Shown: positions 29,120 to 36,348, counted from the stretch's first letter. The stretch: 36,348 nt of DNA from Candidatus Terraquivivens tikiterensis (GCA_003056285.1 NDWU01000018.1:1-36348), one strand, 5' to 3'. Notes: generated by a model not told the origin, from the letters alone. Program-made: numbers and translations.

Positions 29120-29187
29120 TTGGCCAGTTTGTGTATGAGCATGCGCACGATAAAAACTTAAAGGGAGCTTTCCATGGGAAAAATTTG

Positions 29188-30429
29188 ATGCTAAGTTTTG
29201 GCTTGACGGAAAACGTTTTCGAGCTCCGCGTCCCCTACGTAAAGTTTGGTATCGGATCGGTCTACGAGCTTGGCTATGATCTCTCCAGGCTAAAGCTAAA
29301 AAGGACACTTATCGTTACTGATGAGTACATAAGCAAAAAGACGGACTATGTCGAACGCGCCGTTTCATCGTTTAAACAGCTTGGAATCGAGGCTGACGTT
29401 TGGGACGGTGTGGAGCCAGAGCCCTCGGATACTTCAATACAGAGGGGGATAGATTTCGCCAAGGAAGGGAGGTACGATAGCTTCGTGGCAATCGGCGGCG
29501 GTAGCTCGATAGACACTGCCAAGCTGATCGACCTGTACACGACGTACCCGGCTGATCTAACCGACTACTTTGCGCAACCGATAGGCAAGGGCATACAGAT
29601 TCCGGGCCCAATAAAATTCTTAGCTGCCGTGCCGACGACCTCTGGAACCGGCAGCGAAACTACTGCTACTGCCGTGGTAACCTTCGTAGCCAAAAAGTCT
29701 AAGTTTGGCATAACGCACGAGTGCCTAATGCCTAAGATAGCGGTCCTTGACCCCCTATTGACAACATCCATGCCGCCAGGACTGACAGCAAGCACTGGCG
29801 TGGATGCGCTGATGCATGCAGTCGAGGCGTACTTGGCGAGGCCGTACACCACGAGAGAGAGGCCGCAATCGCCGCTTACCAGGCCTGCCTACCAAGGCTC
29901 CATGCTCATAACCGACTTTCTTGCAGAGAAGGCAATACAACTGATCGGAGAGTATCTCCCGAAGGCCTACGCAAACGGCCTTAACATGGAGGCAAGGTCT
30001 AACATGCATCTTGCCGCCTTCATAGCGGGCGTAGCCTTTGGAAACGCCGGCGTCCACTTGGCGCATGCCCTTGCCTTATCTCTTTCCACGATCGCCATGG
30101 AGAAAGGCATAAAGCTGCCGCACGGCGTTGCGGCAGGAGTTTTCGGACCAGGCCTGCTGAAGGTCTTGGAGCCTTTCTATCCAGAGAGGTGCTCGATCGT
30201 AGCGAGCTACTTGGGCAAAGGTGTCAGAGCTCGTGCTCACGAGGCAATGTCGGAGTTCATTAAGGCCTTGGGCCTTCCAGGAGGCCTTCATGAGCTAGGA
30301 ATAACTGAAAGGGAAGTCGATGCTTTGGTCGAGGGCGCCCTCATGAATAAGCGGCTTCTGTCCATAAGCCCCATAACCCCCAGCAAAGACGTTTTGAAGA
30401 AGATAGCGACTGAAAGCTTTCAATACTGA
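29188..30429 (+). CDS. Iron-containing dehydrogenase, hydroxyacid-oxoacid transhydrogenase-like
   Basis: 413 residues from ATG at 29188; an open frame to 29113 would overlap the divergent miaB-like start. Group III alcohol dehydrogenase fold: GGGSSIDTAK from 103, PTTSGTGSE from 149, metal ligands in GVDALMHAVEAY (Asp206, His210), HLAHAL (His293) and LPHGVA (His312). The stretches LYTTYPADLTDYFAQPIGKG, ARPYTTRERP, RPAYQGS, EARSNMHLA and AFGNAGVHL closely recall mammalian and bacterial hydroxyacid-oxoacid transhydrogenase (ADHFE1). Such enzymes oxidise a 3-, 4- or 2-hydroxyacid while reducing 2-oxoglutarate, with bound NAD. A TATA-like stretch (ATAAAAACTTAAAG, about 29151-29164) lies upstream. 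Confidence 0.85.
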   Translation: MLSFGLTENVFELRVPYVKFGIGSVYELGYDLSRLKLKRTLIVTDEYISKKTDYVERAVSSFKQLGIEADVWDGVEPEPSDTSIQRGIDFAKEGRYDSFVAIGGGSSIDTAKLIDLYTTYPADLTDYFAQPIGKGIQIPGPIKFLAAVPTTSGTGSETTATAVVTFVAKKSKFGITHECLMPKIAVLDPLLTTSMPPGLTASTGVDALMHAVEAYLARPYTTRERPQSPLTRPAYQGSMLITDFLAEKAIQLIGEYLPKAYANGLNMEARSNMHLAAFIAGVAFGNAGVHLAHALALSLSTIAMEKGIKLPHGVAAGVFGPGLLKVLEPFYPERCSIVASYLGKGVRARAHEAMSEFIKALGLPGGLHELGITEREVDALVEGALMNKRLLSISPITPSKDVLKKIATESFQY

Positions 30430-30492
30430 CAAAATAAATAAAAGTTAAAATACAGGCATTACTGACAAAATAAAAGTTAAAATACAGGCATT
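30425..30492 (+). repeat. Two tandem copies of a 32/36-bp A/T-rich unit
   Basis: Copy one (30425-30460) and copy two (30461-30492) both read ACTGACAAAATAA, then AAGTTAAAATACAGGCATT. Copy one has four extra bases (ATAA) within its A/T-rich part. The first copy includes the stop codon of the iron dehydrogenase gene. Each holds a TATA-like GTTAAAAT. The unit lies 27 bases before the zinc dehydrogenase gene, so it may carry its promoter or a regulator site. Confidence 0.85.
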
Positions 30493-30518
30493 TACATTAA
30501 TAAAGATTGTGAACCTTT

Positions 30519-31712
30519 ATGGCGGAAAAACATAAAGTAGCTGGAACGTGGCCTGGAAAAGTTGAAATTCTTGAGCATGCGCTACCGACGCTCAAGGACG
30601 ACCAGATGCTAATCAGGGTCGAGCTATCCGGCATCTGCGGAACGGATGCCCACACTTTCGAGAAGGGCTTCGGACCGCACAGGATATCCGGAAAGGTCGG
30701 CTATCCGCTATACCTTGGGCACGAGTACGTAGGCGTAATAGAGAAGAAGGGAAAAGAGGCCGATAAGAACATGTTTTACCACACGGAGGTGCCGCAGGAG
30801 GGCGATAGGATCTGGTGGGGCCTAGACCACTACTGCAACGTATGCGATTGGGAGGTTCTGTACCCAGGATGGCAGCAGTGGTGTCTTGGCGCGTTCTTCT
30901 ATGGTTTCGACGAGACCCCCTTCCACGGTGCATGGAGCCGTTACGTCATCCTTGAGCCCGGCACCCACATTTGGAAATTCGACAAAAAGATAACGCCGGA
31001 AAAGGGCGTCGTCGTAGAACCCTACATAGTAGGCCTGAGAGCTGTTGACAAGGTGCTGACGTTGCTCTCGATCTCCGAGAAGGAGGCCAACCCTGCTACC
31101 GACCTGTTTGTGATATACGGTGCGGGTGCCATTGGAAACGCCGCGCTTACAGCCCTTAAGGCTTCAGTTCCAAACTCCATTGCGATCGTGGTCGACCCCA
31201 ATAAGCACAGGCTGGAGATGGCCAAGAAGCTGGGTGCTGACCATGTCCTCAATGTCAAGGAGACTACGAGAGATGAGAGGATAAAGTTCATCAAGGAGAT
31301 CGCGACTAGCTTGGACAGGCCAAGACTCGGCGACAGGTGGGGTGTAGACGCCGTAATCGACTGTACTGGAAAGAATGCAGATGTTGTCATACCAGAGGCT
31401 ATCGAGATCCTAAGGCCCATGGGTGTGCTGGATGAGGTCGGTGCATTCACCGCCTTTACAGCCGGCAAGTTCACCATCGACCCCCACGAGATCTGTGCCA
31501 GGGAGCTTTTCTTCGTGGGGAGCTGGGCATATCCGCTCTCGACCTGCGACAAGGCCATCAAGCAGGTCAACAAAGGACTTTTCGATAAAATACCATACCA
31601 TGAGATAATCACCCACCGGCGTAGGCTGGTCGCCGAGGATATAACCAACGGCATCAAGTCCCTCCTTTCGGGTGTCGGCATAAAGCACGTAATAGACCCA
31701 TGGAAAGCGTAA
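30519..31712 (+). CDS. Zinc-dependent alcohol dehydrogenase (MDR family)
   Basis: 397 residues. Catalytic zinc site: Cys40 in SGICGTD, His68-Glu69 in LGHEY, and Glu167-type residue in VVVEPY. The structural zinc loop is unusual: Cys106, Cys109 and Cys122 are seen within YCNVCDWEVLYPGWQQWC, but the fourth cysteine of the usual set is absent. The Rossmann domain has VIYGAGAIGNAALTAL and VVDPNKHRLEMAKKLGADHV; the Asp after VV favours NAD. A Trp-rich insert (RIWWGLDHY) sets it apart from threonine and sorbitol dehydrogenases. Substrate unknown. It sits between the transhydrogenase-like and methyltransferase-like genes on the same strand. Confidence 0.85.
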   Translation: MAEKHKVAGTWPGKVEILEHALPTLKDDQMLIRVELSGICGTDAHTFEKGFGPHRISGKVGYPLYLGHEYVGVIEKKGKEADKNMFYHTEVPQEGDRIWWGLDHYCNVCDWEVLYPGWQQWCLGAFFYGFDETPFHGAWSRYVILEPGTHIWKFDKKITPEKGVVVEPYIVGLRAVDKVLTLLSISEKEANPATDLFVIYGAGAIGNAALTALKASVPNSIAIVVDPNKHRLEMAKKLGADHVLNVKETTRDERIKFIKEIATSLDRPRLGDRWGVDAVIDCTGKNADVVIPEAIEILRPMGVLDEVGAFTAFTAGKFTIDPHEICARELFFVGSWAYPLSTCDKAIKQVNKGLFDKIPYHEIITHRRRLVAEDITNGIKSLLSGVGIKHVIDPWKA

Positions 31713-31723
31713 AATATCCTCCA

Positions 31724-31738
31724 TATTTTTTATTTATC
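31724..31738 (+). terminator. T-rich stretch after the zinc dehydrogenase
   Basis: TATTTTTTATTTAT directly after the gene, the T-rich form of archaeal intrinsic terminators. No hairpin is needed or seen. Confidence 0.45.
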
Positions 31739-31773
31739 TACCTACTCTAACTCTAATTCAAGGAGTTTATATA

Positions 31774-32796
31774 ATGTTGCCGTATGAGAGGGTAATGGAG
31801 GTATTTAGGGGAGGTACGCCGGATAGGATTCCTTGCGTAAACTTCGCAAGCGTCATAACGAAGGAATTCTTGGCCTACTACAATGCAAACTGGGTTGACA
31901 TCTATCAAGATCCGGAGAAGATGGCTAGCGTAGCCTCTGCGGCTCATAGGCTCTGCGGTCTTGATAACATAAGCCTTCCGTTCGACCAATCCGTCGAGGC
32001 GGAATTGCTAGGAATAAAGTTCGACTACCATCCCGATGGCCCGCCTACTCCCTTGAGCTTTTTATCAGAAGAACAATACTTTGAGATAGTCGTACCGCAC
32101 TCCCTAGCAGACAAAGGCAGGATGCCCGTTATCCAAAAGGCCATCAAGAGGCTTAAAGAGGAGTTTGGAGGCAGGGTGCCCATTAACGTGATCGTTAGCC
32201 CACCCATGACCACCGTTGCAGGGTATCTTTTGGGGCCGTCGGCCACGAACCTTATGATGAGGAGGTTCCCGGGCGCGCTCAAGGGTATGCTAGAAGAGAC
32301 GTTCAGGCTTCATCTAGAGCTTGTGAACCTGTATGAGGAGTGGGGCGCTGATATAATAACGCTCCACGACCCGAAGGGCTCGCCAGACGTCCTAAACCCA
32401 GGCTTCTTCGATTCGCTCGTTTTGTCGTATCATAAGTCGCTCATCGAGGAGACAAAGCTGCCAACCGTCGTTAACGTATGCGGGAACATAATCCATGTTT
32501 TAGAGAAGATAATCAGCTGCAACCCTTCGGCCATCGTCTTCGACTACAAAACCCCAGTAAAGTCCGTGATGAAAGCTTTAAGCGAGGCTAACAAAAAGAT
32601 ACCAGTCGCCGGCAACCTATCACCATTTTGGGACATATACTTGGCAGATGATGAGAGGATGGAGGAGAGGGTGGTAGAGGTTATCAAGGGAGGCGTGGAT
32701 TTTGTCTCGCCGGGTTGCGACCTATGGGTAGCGACGCCGATAGAAAAGCTAAGGGGTCTAGTAAGCCTGGTTGAAAAGTACGGGAAAATCAGATGA
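31774..32796 (+). CDS. UroD/MtaA-family protein (methylcobamide methyltransferase-like)
   Basis: 340 residues of the uroporphyrinogen decarboxylase fold, nearer to MtaA/MtbA corrinoid:thiol methyltransferases than to HemE. It opens YERVMEVFRGGTPDRIPCV and has ADIITLHDPKGSPDVLNPGFF. The zinc site of MtaA/MtbA is His-x-Cys and a distant Cys. Here it reads NVCGN (Asn234, Cys236) and SPGCDLW (Cys315), so the His is replaced by Asn while both Cys remain. AAGGAG eight bases before the ATG is its ribosome binding site. No corrinoid protein gene is near. It may move a methyl group to a different acceptor. Confidence 0.8.
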   Translation: MLPYERVMEVFRGGTPDRIPCVNFASVITKEFLAYYNANWVDIYQDPEKMASVASAAHRLCGLDNISLPFDQSVEAELLGIKFDYHPDGPPTPLSFLSEEQYFEIVVPHSLADKGRMPVIQKAIKRLKEEFGGRVPINVIVSPPMTTVAGYLLGPSATNLMMRRFPGALKGMLEETFRLHLELVNLYEEWGADIITLHDPKGSPDVLNPGFFDSLVLSYHKSLIEETKLPTVVNVCGNIIHVLEKIISCNPSAIVFDYKTPVKSVMKALSEANKKIPVAGNLSPFWDIYLADDERMEERVVEVIKGGVDFVSPGCDLWVATPIEKLRGLVSLVEKYGKIR

Positions 32797-32878
32797 ACGT
32801 CTCATAAAAACCAACTAATAGTTAATATTTCAGCAATTTTAACTGAGCCGAGGGCTGAAAAGGTCACGGTGATGCTGG

Positions 32879-33883
32879 TTGCCAAATAAGTCGGAGGTTC
32901 TACTACTCTCCGAGGAGGACGTCATCTCAACCGGTTTAACGATGTCCCAATGCATGGAGCTTGTCGAGGAGGTTTTGAGGGCGCGTGCTAACGGCCAAAC
33001 CCTTTCTCCGCCCAAGGTCTTTTTGGACATGAGGCTGAATAGCGAGCACCAGTGCGATGCGGATGCGATGCCGGCTTATGTCAAGTACATCGACATGTGC
33101 GGGCTAAAGTGGATAGGTGCTAACTGGGAAAATAGGTATAAACGGGGCCTACCTAACGTTATCGGAATAGTAATCTTAAACGACCCTGAAAGCTTCGTGC
33201 CTTTAGCGATCATGTCCGCAAACTGGCTGACCGCTATGAGGACGGGGGCTGCGACCGGGTTGGCCGTAAGGGAGCTGGCCGGTAAGGGTTCTAAGATACT
33301 TTCGATAATCGGAACTGGTTACGAGGCTAAATTTCAGCTGATGGCCATAAACGAGGTTGTAAAGCTGGATGAGGTTAGGGTGTTTGACATAGACAGAGAT
33401 GCGATGGAATCTTTTCTCAGGGATGCCGACCAAACGTTTAGCGTTAACATAATTCCATGCAAAGGCGTTAAGGAGGCCGTCGATGGTGCAGACCTGGTAG
33501 TAACCGTCACATCCTCCCGCATACCCGTTCTGGGTGAAGACTTCGTACCCGACACGGCAAAGCTAATCTGCTCGATCGGTACGTACAATGAGCTTGGAGA
33601 TAAGATCGTGGGATGGTTTGACAAAATAGTAGTCGATACCCGAGAACAGGCGAAATCCGAGGGCGCATTAGCCGATTGGTTTGCAAGGGGGCTTATATCA
33701 AACGGGGACATCTACGCCGAACTTGGTGAAATACTGGTAGGGAGAAAGAAGGGAAGGGTCTCGGAGGACGAAAAGATACTTTGCGTTTTGACTGGGCTGG
33801 GATGCGAAGACGTTGTGGTCGCTAACAGGGTATACAGAATAGCAAAAGAAAGGGGGTTGGGGAAGACTTTCAGGTTTTTCTAG
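32879..33883 (+). CDS. Ornithine cyclodeaminase/mu-crystallin family dehydrogenase
   Basis: 334 residues from TTG at 32879. In-frame TGA at 32870 limits the start, and GGTGA lies just upstream. Family features: LKWIGANWENRYKRGLPNV with Lys77, ILNDPESFVPLAIM, NWLTAMRTGAATGLAV with Arg121, the NAD(P) loop IIGTGYEAKFQL from 143, and the closing GLGCEDVVVANRVYRIA. Members include ornithine cyclodeaminase, alanine dehydrogenase (Archaeoglobus type), ketimine reductase and pyrroline-2-carboxylate reductase; sequence cannot pick one. An upstream AGTTAATATTTC (about 32819-32830) may be its promoter. It converges on the Fe-S gene with a one-base gap. Confidence 0.85.
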   Translation: MPNKSEVLLLSEEDVISTGLTMSQCMELVEEVLRARANGQTLSPPKVFLDMRLNSEHQCDADAMPAYVKYIDMCGLKWIGANWENRYKRGLPNVIGIVILNDPESFVPLAIMSANWLTAMRTGAATGLAVRELAGKGSKILSIIGTGYEAKFQLMAINEVVKLDEVRVFDIDRDAMESFLRDADQTFSVNIIPCKGVKEAVDGADLVVTVTSSRIPVLGEDFVPDTAKLICSIGTYNELGDKIVGWFDKIVVDTREQAKSEGALADWFARGLISNGDIYAELGEILVGRKKGRVSEDEKILCVLTGLGCEDVVVANRVYRIAKERGLGKTFRFF

Positions 33884-33884
33884 T

Positions 33885-35165
33885 TCAATGGAGGCCCGTC
33901 GAGGCAACTACTATATCTACGATGTCCATGTATTTTGCCTTGAGCCTGAGGTTTTTTATTCCTTTTTTAATCATCAGGGCGCAGACAGGACAGCATGAGG
34001 ATATTATGTCAGGGTTTCCGACGTTAAGCTCCGATACACGGTTTACGGAGGCCCTCGTTGCCACGTCCCTATAAATCAGCTCGACGCCGCCGCCTCCGCA
34101 ACACTTCGTCTCGCGTCTATTATTCGGTGGCTCTACGAGCTCTAAGTTTTCTATAGCTTTTAGTACAACCCTTGGCTCATCCACAACGTTCATGAACCTT
34201 GCAAGATAGCAGGGGTCATGAAATACAACCTTTGCAGGCTCTGGGAATCGGAGATCTATGCCGTTGTTTTCTATAACTTCGGCAAGCACCTCCGTTACAT
34301 GCTTAACTTCGATGTCCCAACCCTCTACATAGGACGGGTATTCGTCCTTCAAGACGCCGCCGCATATAGGGTTGTGGACTATCAGCCTTTTGACGCCCCT
34401 TTCCTTAAGGATTTTGTAGACTTTTTTGGCGTGCTCGGCGAACTCGTCTAGCAGGCCATAAGTGTGGAGGGCCGCACCGCAGCATGGCTCGTCGTTCCCC
34501 ATGTAGGAGAAGTCAACGTTTAGCATCTTCAGGAGTTTTGCAGTGTTGGCCAAGCTGTTTCTATAAAACCTGTGTTTTCCCTCGAGGAGTGCATCGAGAA
34601 ACTTGGTAACGCCGAGGCTCTGGATCCGTGAGCTCAAAGACATCAGGGTGTTTTCGGCCCATCCGAACGTCTCGAGCATGTTGACCAGGAGCTCACCGTA
34701 AGCCATCGAGGAGTCCATACAGCTGGCAAATAGGACTGTGTCGGAATTCCTGGGTAAGCCTAGGTCCTCAGCCCACTTTGCCTTCGTCGCGGCCGAGCCG
34801 AATATATCGCCCTCCTTAACGCCCGTTACCAGGCTATCGGCAACCTTCCTCATGAATGGGTTAAGGGCGTTTGCCTTTATGATCATATGCCTTGCCTGAA
34901 CGGATATCTCCGAGGTGTCGATGCCTTGTGGGCATTTCACGGCGCATGCCCTGCAAACCCCGCACATGTAGAACTTCTGGGCCAGCCTGGGCGTTGGCTG
35001 GACCGTGCCTTCGAGCAGCAACTGGAAGAGGGTCTTTCTGCCCCTTGGGCCAACCGACTCCTCCATGTTGGAGGCTTCCAAAAAAGGACAGACTGAGCGG
35101 CAGAAACCACAATGCTCGCAAAATCGGATCTTCTTCATTAGAGCGTCAAGGCTTTTACCTACCAT
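33885..35165 (-). CDS. Iron-sulfur subunit with CCG domains (GlcF/HdrD-like)
   Basis: 426 residues from ATG at 35165. Two ferredoxin-type 4Fe-4S motifs occur near the N-terminus: CEHCGFCRSVCP and CGVCRACAVKCP. Two cysteine-rich CCG domains follow: EPCCGAAL with later HNPICGG, and HDPCYLARF, KCCGGGG and SCCPVCALMI. This is the plan of glycolate/lactate oxidase subunit GlcF and heterodisulfide reductase HdrD. Electrons from the FAD subunit upstream would pass through it to quinone or to a thiol/disulfide acceptor. It begins one base after the FAD gene's stop, with GGGTG upstream as a likely binding site, so the two form one operon. Confidence 0.88.
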   Translation of the reverse strand: MVGKSLDALMKKIRFCEHCGFCRSVCPFLEASNMEESVGPRGRKTLFQLLLEGTVQPTPRLAQKFYMCGVCRACAVKCPQGIDTSEISVQARHMIIKANALNPFMRKVADSLVTGVKEGDIFGSAATKAKWAEDLGLPRNSDTVLFASCMDSSMAYGELLVNMLETFGWAENTLMSLSSRIQSLGVTKFLDALLEGKHRFYRNSLANTAKLLKMLNVDFSYMGNDEPCCGAALHTYGLLDEFAEHAKKVYKILKERGVKRLIVHNPICGGVLKDEYPSYVEGWDIEVKHVTEVLAEVIENNGIDLRFPEPAKVVFHDPCYLARFMNVVDEPRVVLKAIENLELVEPPNNRRETKCCGGGGVELIYRDVATRASVNRVSELNVGNPDIISSCCPVCALMIKKGIKNLRLKAKYMDIVDIVVASTGLH

Positions 35166-35166
35166 C

Positions 35167-36348
35167 CTACACACCCATCTTGCCCGGGTTCATTATATTG
35201 TTCGGGTCTATCAACCCCTTTATCGCCCTCATAAGCGCCATGGCTGCTGGGCCAACCTCCTCCGCCAAAAGCTCGGCCTTGTCGATTCCTATGCCGTGCT
35301 CACCGGATATCGTTCCGCCGATTCTGATCACGTACCTGCACATCTCGTCGTGAGCCCTCTTCGCCCTTGCACTCTCCTCTGGGTCGTTTAGGTTAACGGA
35401 GAAGATTGCGTGCACGTTCCCGTCACCGGCATGCGAAAGGATGGCCACAGGTATACCGTACCTATCGCAGATCTCTCTAATCGTCTTGAACGCCTCCGGT
35501 AGCTTGCTTATAGGCACGCAGACGTCGTGCGTGACGTTCATCTTACCGGTTACGTTGGGTAGCGCCGTGGCACCCTCGCTCCTGATCGTCCATATCTCGT
35601 TGAACTCCTCCTGCGTAGTTGCCCTTAATACCTGCGAGGCGCCAGACTCCCTCAGGACCTGCTCTACCTTGCTTGCCGTAGCCTCCACCTCGCTTCTAGA
35701 GCCATCGACGCTCACGATTAGGTACGCATCCATGTCTGGGAATTTTTTGCCGAGCCACTTGCTGACTGCGGCTATTACGCTCCTGTCCATCAGCTCGATG
35801 GAAGCAGGAACTATCCCAGCCATGTATATTTTCGAGACAGCCTCGCCCGCCTTCTCTATGCTCTCGAAGTAGGCGGATATCCTGTTTTCAGCCTCGGGGA
35901 TCGGCCTAAGCTTCAGCGTAGCCTCCGTGATTATCCCGAGCGTTCCCTCGGAGCCAACGAAGAGCCTAGTAAGGTCGTAGCCGGCATTGCCCTTGAGCGT
36001 TCTGCTGCCCGTCCTTATAATTTCACCGTTGGGCAATACGACCTTTAGGCCGAGCACCCAGTCCCGTGTGGTACCGTACTTCAATGCCCTCATGCCGCCT
36101 GCGTTCATCGCGATTACGCCGCCCATCGTGCAGGCATCGCTACTGCCTGGGTCTGGTGGCCAGAACAGGCCGTGTTTTGCGAGCTCGCTCTCAAGCTTAG
36201 CATGGACTACGCCTGCCTCAACGGTGCACCTTAGGTCTGCAGGGCTGATCTCGAGTATCCTGTTCATACCGGTAAGGTCTACGACTATGCCGCCTTTCGA
36301 GGGCACGACCCCACCCACGAAGTTTGTGCCCGCACCCCTGGGTATGAC
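35167..36348 (-). CDS. FAD-linked oxidase (GlcD/D-lactate dehydrogenase type), cut by window edge
   Basis: 394 codons are visible and the frame continues past 36348, so the N-terminus is outside the window. The FAD-binding PCMH domain shows IPRGAGTNFVGG at the edge, PPDPGSSDACTMGGVIAMNAGG, KGNAGYDLTRLFVGSEGTLG and TEATLKLRP. The cap and C-terminal region have SHAGDGNVHAIF and SGEHGIGIDKAELL. The visible part ends GLIDPNNIMNPGKM, typical for the family. It oxidises a 2-hydroxyacid such as glycolate, D-lactate or D-2-hydroxyglutarate and passes electrons to the GlcF-like subunit. The transhydrogenase-like enzyme nearby would make or use such hydroxyacids. Confidence 0.92.
   Translation of the reverse strand, partial: VIPRGAGTNFVGGVVPSKGGIVVDLTGMNRILEISPADLRCTVEAGVVHAKLESELAKHGLFWPPDPGSSDACTMGGVIAMNAGGMRALKYGTTRDWVLGLKVVLPNGEIIRTGSRTLKGNAGYDLTRLFVGSEGTLGIITEATLKLRPIPEAENRISAYFESIEKAGEAVSKIYMAGIVPASIELMDRSVIAAVSKWLGKKFPDMDAYLIVSVDGSRSEVEATASKVEQVLRESGASQVLRATTQEEFNEIWTIRSEGATALPNVTGKMNVTHDVCVPISKLPEAFKTIREICDRYGIPVAILSHAGDGNVHAIFSVNLNDPEESARAKRAHDEMCRYVIRIGGTISGEHGIGIDKAELLAEEVGPAAMALMRAIKGLIDPNNIMNPGKMGV

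Follow-up and report, generated by a model that had tools for sequence, protein, structure and literature searches.

Does a run of six genes at the end of an archaeal contig encode a single electron-relay pathway, two units working in parallel or a chance grouping? The window, as we call the whole stretch of DNA analysed, corresponds to the whole of contig C12 (36,348 bp) in an archaeal assembly of 1.54 Mb and 97% completeness (G000), whose nearest named relatives are Ca. Terraquivivens species. This hot-spring archaeal genus has been placed in the Caldarchaeales/Aigarchaeota (PMC9246946). The initial annotation of the locus proposed that a HOT-like iron-dependent dehydrogenase passes electrons, in the form of a hydroxyacid, to a GlcD/GlcF oxidase, while a variant MtaA homologue and an ornithine cyclodeaminase (OCD)-family enzyme process a methylated or amino-acid substrate.

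Layout and conservation of the six genes

The place, order, strand and family of each gene were borne out by gene calls and by Pfam and NCBIfam profiles (Table 1). No NCBIfam equivalog cut-off is reached by any of the six proteins, and an Rfam scan of the region gave no match. The genes form two converging units that meet tail to tail, almost without a gap. Unit A, on the plus strand, comprises the HOT-like Fe-dehydrogenase, a Zn-dehydrogenase, the UroD/MtaA homologue (UroD-NxC below) and the OCD-family enzyme, separated by intergenic gaps of 60–90 nt. Unit B, on the minus strand, comprises GlcF and GlcD, whose reading frames overlap by 8 nt. The contig end removes the 5' end of glcD, leaving a protein without its N-terminus that is shorter than the ~460 aa of its relatives. 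The A-rich element preceding unit A may serve as a promoter. Between the HOT-like and Zn-dehydrogenase genes, at 30428-30492 of the window, lies a ~30-bp A-rich tandem duplication (GACAAAATAAA...AGTTAAAATACAGGCATT) that is present as a single copy in relatives.

Table 1. Features of the six-gene locus, in window coordinates
Feature	Position	Strand	Details
A-rich TATA-like element CGATAAAAACTTAAAG	29148..29163	+	24 nt upstream of HOT start codon; kept in 6/6 species
HOT-like iron-containing alcohol dehydrogenase, 413 aa	29188..30429	+	PF00465, PF25137
Zn-dependent medium-chain dehydrogenase, 397 aa	30519..31712	+	PF08240, PF00107
UroD/MtaA-family protein (UroD-NxC), 340 aa	31774..32796	+	PF01208, 179 bits; Asn-x-Cys...Cys replacing His-x-Cys...Cys
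Altered Zn motif Asn234-Val235-Cys236 of UroD-NxC	32473..32481	+	codons AAC GTA TGC
Second Cys of UroD-NxC, C315, codon	32716-32718	+	
Ornithine cyclodeaminase/mu-crystallin family enzyme, 334 aa	32879..33883	+	PF02423, 223 bits
GlcF/TfrB-type subunit, 429 aa	33885..35174	-	PF13183, PF02754 x2; two 4Fe-4S motifs, two CCG domains
GlcD FAD-linked hydroxyacid dehydrogenase, 393 aa	35167..36348	-	TIGR00387, 430 bits

All six genes are found in the same order and orientation in each of the six available Ca. Terraquivivens genomes (the window's included; in G031 the contig ends inside GlcD). A search of 44 genomes of the class recovered orthologues of all six, 76–91% identical, in the five other genomes of the genus. 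In comparisons with computable dS, the dN/dS ratios are 0.03–0.07 for the cluster genes vs 0.06–0.10 for housekeeping neighbours; the six genes are thus under purifying selection, like those neighbours. The neighbouring genes for MiaB, ThiI, NpdG and phosphomannomutase, among them tRNA-modification and sugar-phosphate genes, show the same synteny across the genus, and the left-hand flank is as well conserved in every species. Outside the genus the set did not recur, either in the 44 class genomes or in phylum searches of the Zn-dehydrogenase and UroD. Recurrence in relatives had been proposed as a check of functional grouping, and it was found in all six species of the genus but not beyond. 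Since unrelated neighbours are equally syntenic and the set did not recur in the genomes searched beyond the genus, this recurrence is weak evidence: the linkage is conserved at the genus level, but such synteny does not establish a functional tie. Alignments inspected by eye gave no sign of an operator common to the sequences upstream of HOT and of GlcD, and we found no paper describing the six-gene set in the open-licence literature.

The initial annotation also suggested looking past the right edge for corrinoid proteins or transporters. The corresponding contigs of three relatives (G032, G033 and G034) revealed neither a corrinoid protein nor a recognised transporter. In each, a gene resembling glycerol dehydrogenase (323 bits vs a cut-off of 336) runs divergently from GlcD, two of the three copies being cut by contig ends. 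Next in G034 comes a gene for a 195-aa protein that matches no known family, and then those for aspartate kinase, homoserine dehydrogenase and malic enzyme.

The Zn-dehydrogenase has the catalytic site C40/H68/E69; its structural-zinc loop, earlier described as depleted, retains three cysteines (C106, C109 and C122) in all six species and has an invariant Glu112 near the fourth position; the earlier description is thus only partly right. No full-length homologue was detected outside the genus at E<=1e-45 among 398 genomes of the phylum. A truncated paralogue (G000:C27:35422-36213; L083:5423-6235), 47% identical over residues 131–396 and found only in the window's genome, is possibly a pseudogene. 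The OCD-family enzyme is nearest to archaeal alanine dehydrogenase, with 1omo/1vll as best structures. It falls short of the alanine dehydrogenase score (TIGR02371, 238 bits; cut-off 409), and the Arg of the 1omo/1vll DLRAMPA motif is Asp in all six species.

The HOT-like enzyme and the GlcD pocket

The closest plasmid-encoded matches of the HOT-like enzyme are annotated as hydroxyacid-oxoacid transhydrogenase. In a quick tree, labelled by database names, it is nested in a starred 13-row clade with HOT of Actinobacteria and Deinococcus, which also includes copies from a sister genus and from G022. Two inserts, of 19 residues (alpha5-alpha6) and 13 residues (alpha8-alpha9), are present in all HOT proteins (PMC5125639). 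In our alignment the first region is 25 residues long, against only 7 in ordinary Fe-ADHs. The second has 30, between the 38 of Actinobacteria/Deinococcus HOT and the 25 of ordinary Fe-ADHs; with 25–26 residues in other archaeal copies, the second insert is 5 residues long here and 0–1 there. The enzyme thus resembles the HOT/ADHFE1 subfamily (cd08190) in its clade position, its first insert (18–19 residues) and its retained Asp-His-His-His metal site, but lacks most of the second, and its acceptor is putative. The earlier HOT/ADHFE1-like label holds for the clade and the first insert and fails for the second, and for this reason we use the name 'HOT-like' only, for a possible transhydrogenase.

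The window copy of GlcD, which has no N-terminus, scores 430 bits against the glcD model (cut-off 568 bits), and its best structure matches are glycolate oxidase, LctD and D-lactate dehydrogenase. Arg386, His434, His441, Glu475 and His476 are common to D-2-hydroxyglutarate dehydrogenase (D-2-HGDH), D-lactate dehydrogenase and GlcD, whereas Thr390, Lys401, Tyr432 and Asn443 make up the C5-carboxylate site of D-2-HGDH and are replaced in the other two (PMC7801405). In the window and the four other species with enough sequence, GlcD keeps the equivalents of the five common residues in the motifs WTIR, SHAGDGNVH and GEHG, and replaces all four of the others (Thr390 by Ala, Lys401 by Thr, Tyr432 by Leu, Val or Glu, and Asn443 by Ile), the positions being located by aligning GlcD with 3pm9 and with D-lactate dehydrogenases and not directly from the human sequence. 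By these residues, the pocket is of the D-lactate/glycolate type. The overlapping FAD and Fe-S/CCG pair, the catalytic and C1-carboxylate residues and the pocket type agree with GlcD/GlcF glycolate oxidase and D-lactate dehydrogenases. Unlike the glycolate oxidase, the locus has no adjacent GlcE, its scores lie below the equivalog cut-offs, and its GlcF resembles TfrB more closely than E. coli GlcF (TfrB 125 bits, GlcF 82 bits, both under their NCBIfam cut-offs).

A separate GlcD-GlcF-like FAD/Fe-S fusion of ~980 aa is encoded on contig C16 and, unlinked to the six genes, in all six species. Its score against the YdiJ model (449 bits; cut-off 1350) is close to those of bacterial HOT partners (442 and 454), with which it has Glu-Asp and His-x-Arg motifs in common. 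D-2-hydroxyglutarate, if made, would more likely be oxidised by this fusion than by the GlcD of the locus.

Pairing of HOT with flavin oxidases was observed elsewhere. In three species of the sister genus (G027, G028 and G029), HOT, GlcD and a GlpC-like Fe-S gene are arranged in tandem with an AttM/AhlS-like lactonase gene upstream, one small gene separating HOT from GlcD in G027. These sets (L075:5274-10734 in G027, L073:6558-11418 in G028 and L074:4690-9566 in G029) resemble a lactone/hydroxyacid catabolic operon. On plasmids of M. dioxanotrophicus and R. ruber YYL, HOT adjoins a FAD/Fe-S fusion, and the former plasmid has a succinic-semialdehyde dehydrogenase gene near HOT; no FAD/Fe-S oxidase adjoins HOT in the other nine plasmid neighbourhoods inspected. 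These degradation-plasmid clusters share with our locus the adjacency of HOT and a FAD/Fe-S hydroxyacid oxidase, but their oxidase is a single YdiJ-like fusion beside HOT, whereas the YdiJ-like fusion of Terraquivivens is unlinked. Together, the sister-genus and bacterial arrangements support a possible, looser link between HOT and flavin oxidases. In G022 (L077:735-4107, G022:C11), the gene after HOT, on the same strand, codes for an aldehyde:ferredoxin oxidoreductase, an order that suggests oxidation of an alcohol to an acid via the aldehyde.

UroD-NxC and the corrinoid methyltransferase island

The description of the UroD homologue as a variant MtaA proved apt. The His that serves as a zinc ligand in MtaA aligns to Asn234 in all six species, and Cys236 and Cys315 are retained. 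MtaA (4ay7) was the sole solved relative found by sequence, and an AlphaFold model built from five close orthologues is of low confidence (mean pLDDT 57). UroD-NxC reaches 213 of 244 bits with PRK06252, 191 of 400 with MtaA and 163 of 235 with another family model. It shares with the MtaA/MtbA CoM methyltransferases and Mlp proteins (PMC10418091) the UroD family, MtaA/PRK06252 as closest NCBIfam models and both zinc-ligand cysteines. It differs from them in the Asn at the zinc-ligand His, in scoring below every family cut-off, in having no corrinoid or activase gene nearby and in being retained where a corrinoid island is absent. UroD-NxC is not a standard corrinoid:CoM methyltransferase. The nearest UroD protein outside the genus is 36% identical and has an unrelated gene context. 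Among the phylum homologues aligned, Asn-x-Cys occurs outside the genus only in G249b, which, in a tree with long branches, falls into one starred clade together with the Terraquivivens proteins and with its own His-x-Cys neighbour G249a. The G249b locus (L162; G249:C79) encodes three UroD-family proteins, one Asn-x-Cys and two His-x-Cys, together with MtrH, MttB, a corrinoid protein and RACo.

A methyltransferase island encoding an MtmB-like protein, MtaB, a corrinoid protein and RACo was found, unlinked to the six genes, in four of the six genomes of the genus (the window's included). In the window's genome (G000:C2:68127-73519; L114:6128-11520) the activase is RACo/AcsV-like, a BMP-type ABC transporter is encoded nearby, the MtmB-like protein reads without an in-frame stop (no pyrrolysine TAG), and MtaB scores 534 bits (cut-off 720). 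Presence of UroD-NxC and of the island is uncoupled: G031 and G033 (97–98% complete) keep UroD-NxC at 85–88% identity and lack the island MtaB and corrinoid protein, while G030 and G009 have MtaB and lack UroD-NxC. An obligate partnership is therefore unlikely, and a facultative one is possible. The methyl-processing role proposed for the MtaA-like protein is doubtful, given that no corrinoid protein lies nearby and that two species keep the gene without the island. The presence/absence pattern of UroD-NxC and of MtaB and corrinoid proteins likewise led us to reject all six genes as one corrinoid-dependent pathway.

Parallel units, relays and chance

Our tentatively preferred reading, to which we give slightly less than even credence, is a genus-specific neighbourhood in which two converging units act in parallel, and not as one relay, on small alcohols and hydroxyacids. 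In unit B, GlcD would oxidise a 2-hydroxyacid of the D-lactate or glycolate type at FAD, and electrons would flow through the two 4Fe-4S clusters and CCG domains to a putative membrane acceptor. Unit A would oxidise short-chain hydroxy compounds: the Fe-enzyme may convert a hydroxyacid or alcohol to an aldehyde, with hydride passing to a 2-oxoacid or NAD(P), the Zn-enzyme may carry out an NAD(P)-linked polyol or hydroxyacid step, and the OCD-type enzyme an imine/2-oxoacid step. UroD-NxC might act as a metal-thiolate transferase independent of the known corrinoid island, and the enzymes may cooperate. This reading draws on the families and key residues, the gene order in six of six genomes, the dN/dS values, the GlcD pocket, the HOT clade and first insert, the third conserved metal-dependent dehydrogenase beyond the edge, and the retention of UroD-NxC without the island in G031 and G033. 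Against it, each gap within unit A could hold a promoter, the upstream regions of HOT and GlcD have no common motif visible by eye, every substrate is putative, the six proteins all fall short of the equivalog cut-offs, and the HOT-GlcD tandem of the sister genus suggests some direct link.

Chance grouping, with units A and B adjacent merely because the genus kept its gene order, is the strongest rival, though we consider it rather unlikely: synteny is no weaker for any flanking gene tested, and the searches beyond the genus did not recover the set, but HOT and GlcD are neighbours in three sister-genus species, where random adjacency of two given genes would be well under 1% (a very rough estimate based on ~1,700 genes, a number derived from genome size). 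A relay in which the HOT-like enzyme couples oxidation of a hydroxyacid to reduction of 2-oxoglutarate, the resulting D-2-hydroxyglutarate being re-oxidised by this GlcD/GlcF, could call on the HOT clade, the sister-genus tandem and the two plasmids. We nevertheless rejected it as highly improbable because the four C5-carboxylate replacements are the pattern of enzymes without D-2-hydroxyglutarate activity (PMC7801405), the sister-genus GlcDs likewise lack Lys401 and Asn443, and all six species encode elsewhere the YdiJ-like fusion, whose score matches those of bacterial HOT partners. A single electron-relay pathway of all six genes is accordingly not supported, its key link failing the residue test. 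Were the acceptor pyruvate or glyoxylate, with D-lactate or glycolate carrying electrons to GlcDF, both the GlcD pocket and the sister-genus adjacency, whose GlcD pocket is also of a non-D-2-hydroxyglutarate type, would fit. This version is still improbable, however, as HOT and GlcD lie here in opposite, convergent units, and we know of no HOT-family member that prefers either substrate.

Two further proposals concern UroD-NxC. It could be the methyl-acceptor enzyme (MT2) that the unlinked MtaB/MtmB-corrinoid-RACo island seems to lack, seeing that no UroD or MtrH gene adjoins the island on C2, no MtrH was found in the genus, UroD-NxC is the only URO-D protein above the cut-off in its genome, and its nearest relative outside the genus, G249b, stands beside MtrH in an MttB/corrinoid/RACo cluster. 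We regard this as unlikely in view of the uncoupled distribution in G031, G033, G030 and G009, the lack of any B12-binding-domain protein in G033, and a UroD dN/dS of 0.05 between the window and G031, with no relaxation. A slightly less probable proposal is that UroD-NxC represents a branch of the MtaA family that needs no corrinoid and that Terraquivivens recruited to a new anaerobic pathway with the HOT-like, genus-specific Zn-dehydrogenase and OCD-type enzymes, e.g., to process a hydroxy compound that is methylated or thiol-linked.

Taken as a set, the six genes bring together known enzyme families in a neighbourhood at genus level, with UroD-NxC as the most unusual member. Were UroD-NxC to act with no corrinoid partner, it would widen the chemistry known for the MtaA branch within the UroD superfamily. 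That HOT is repeatedly paired with a flavin oxidase, in bacteria as well as archaea, suggests that such pairs are a reusable microbial module for oxidising hydroxyacids.
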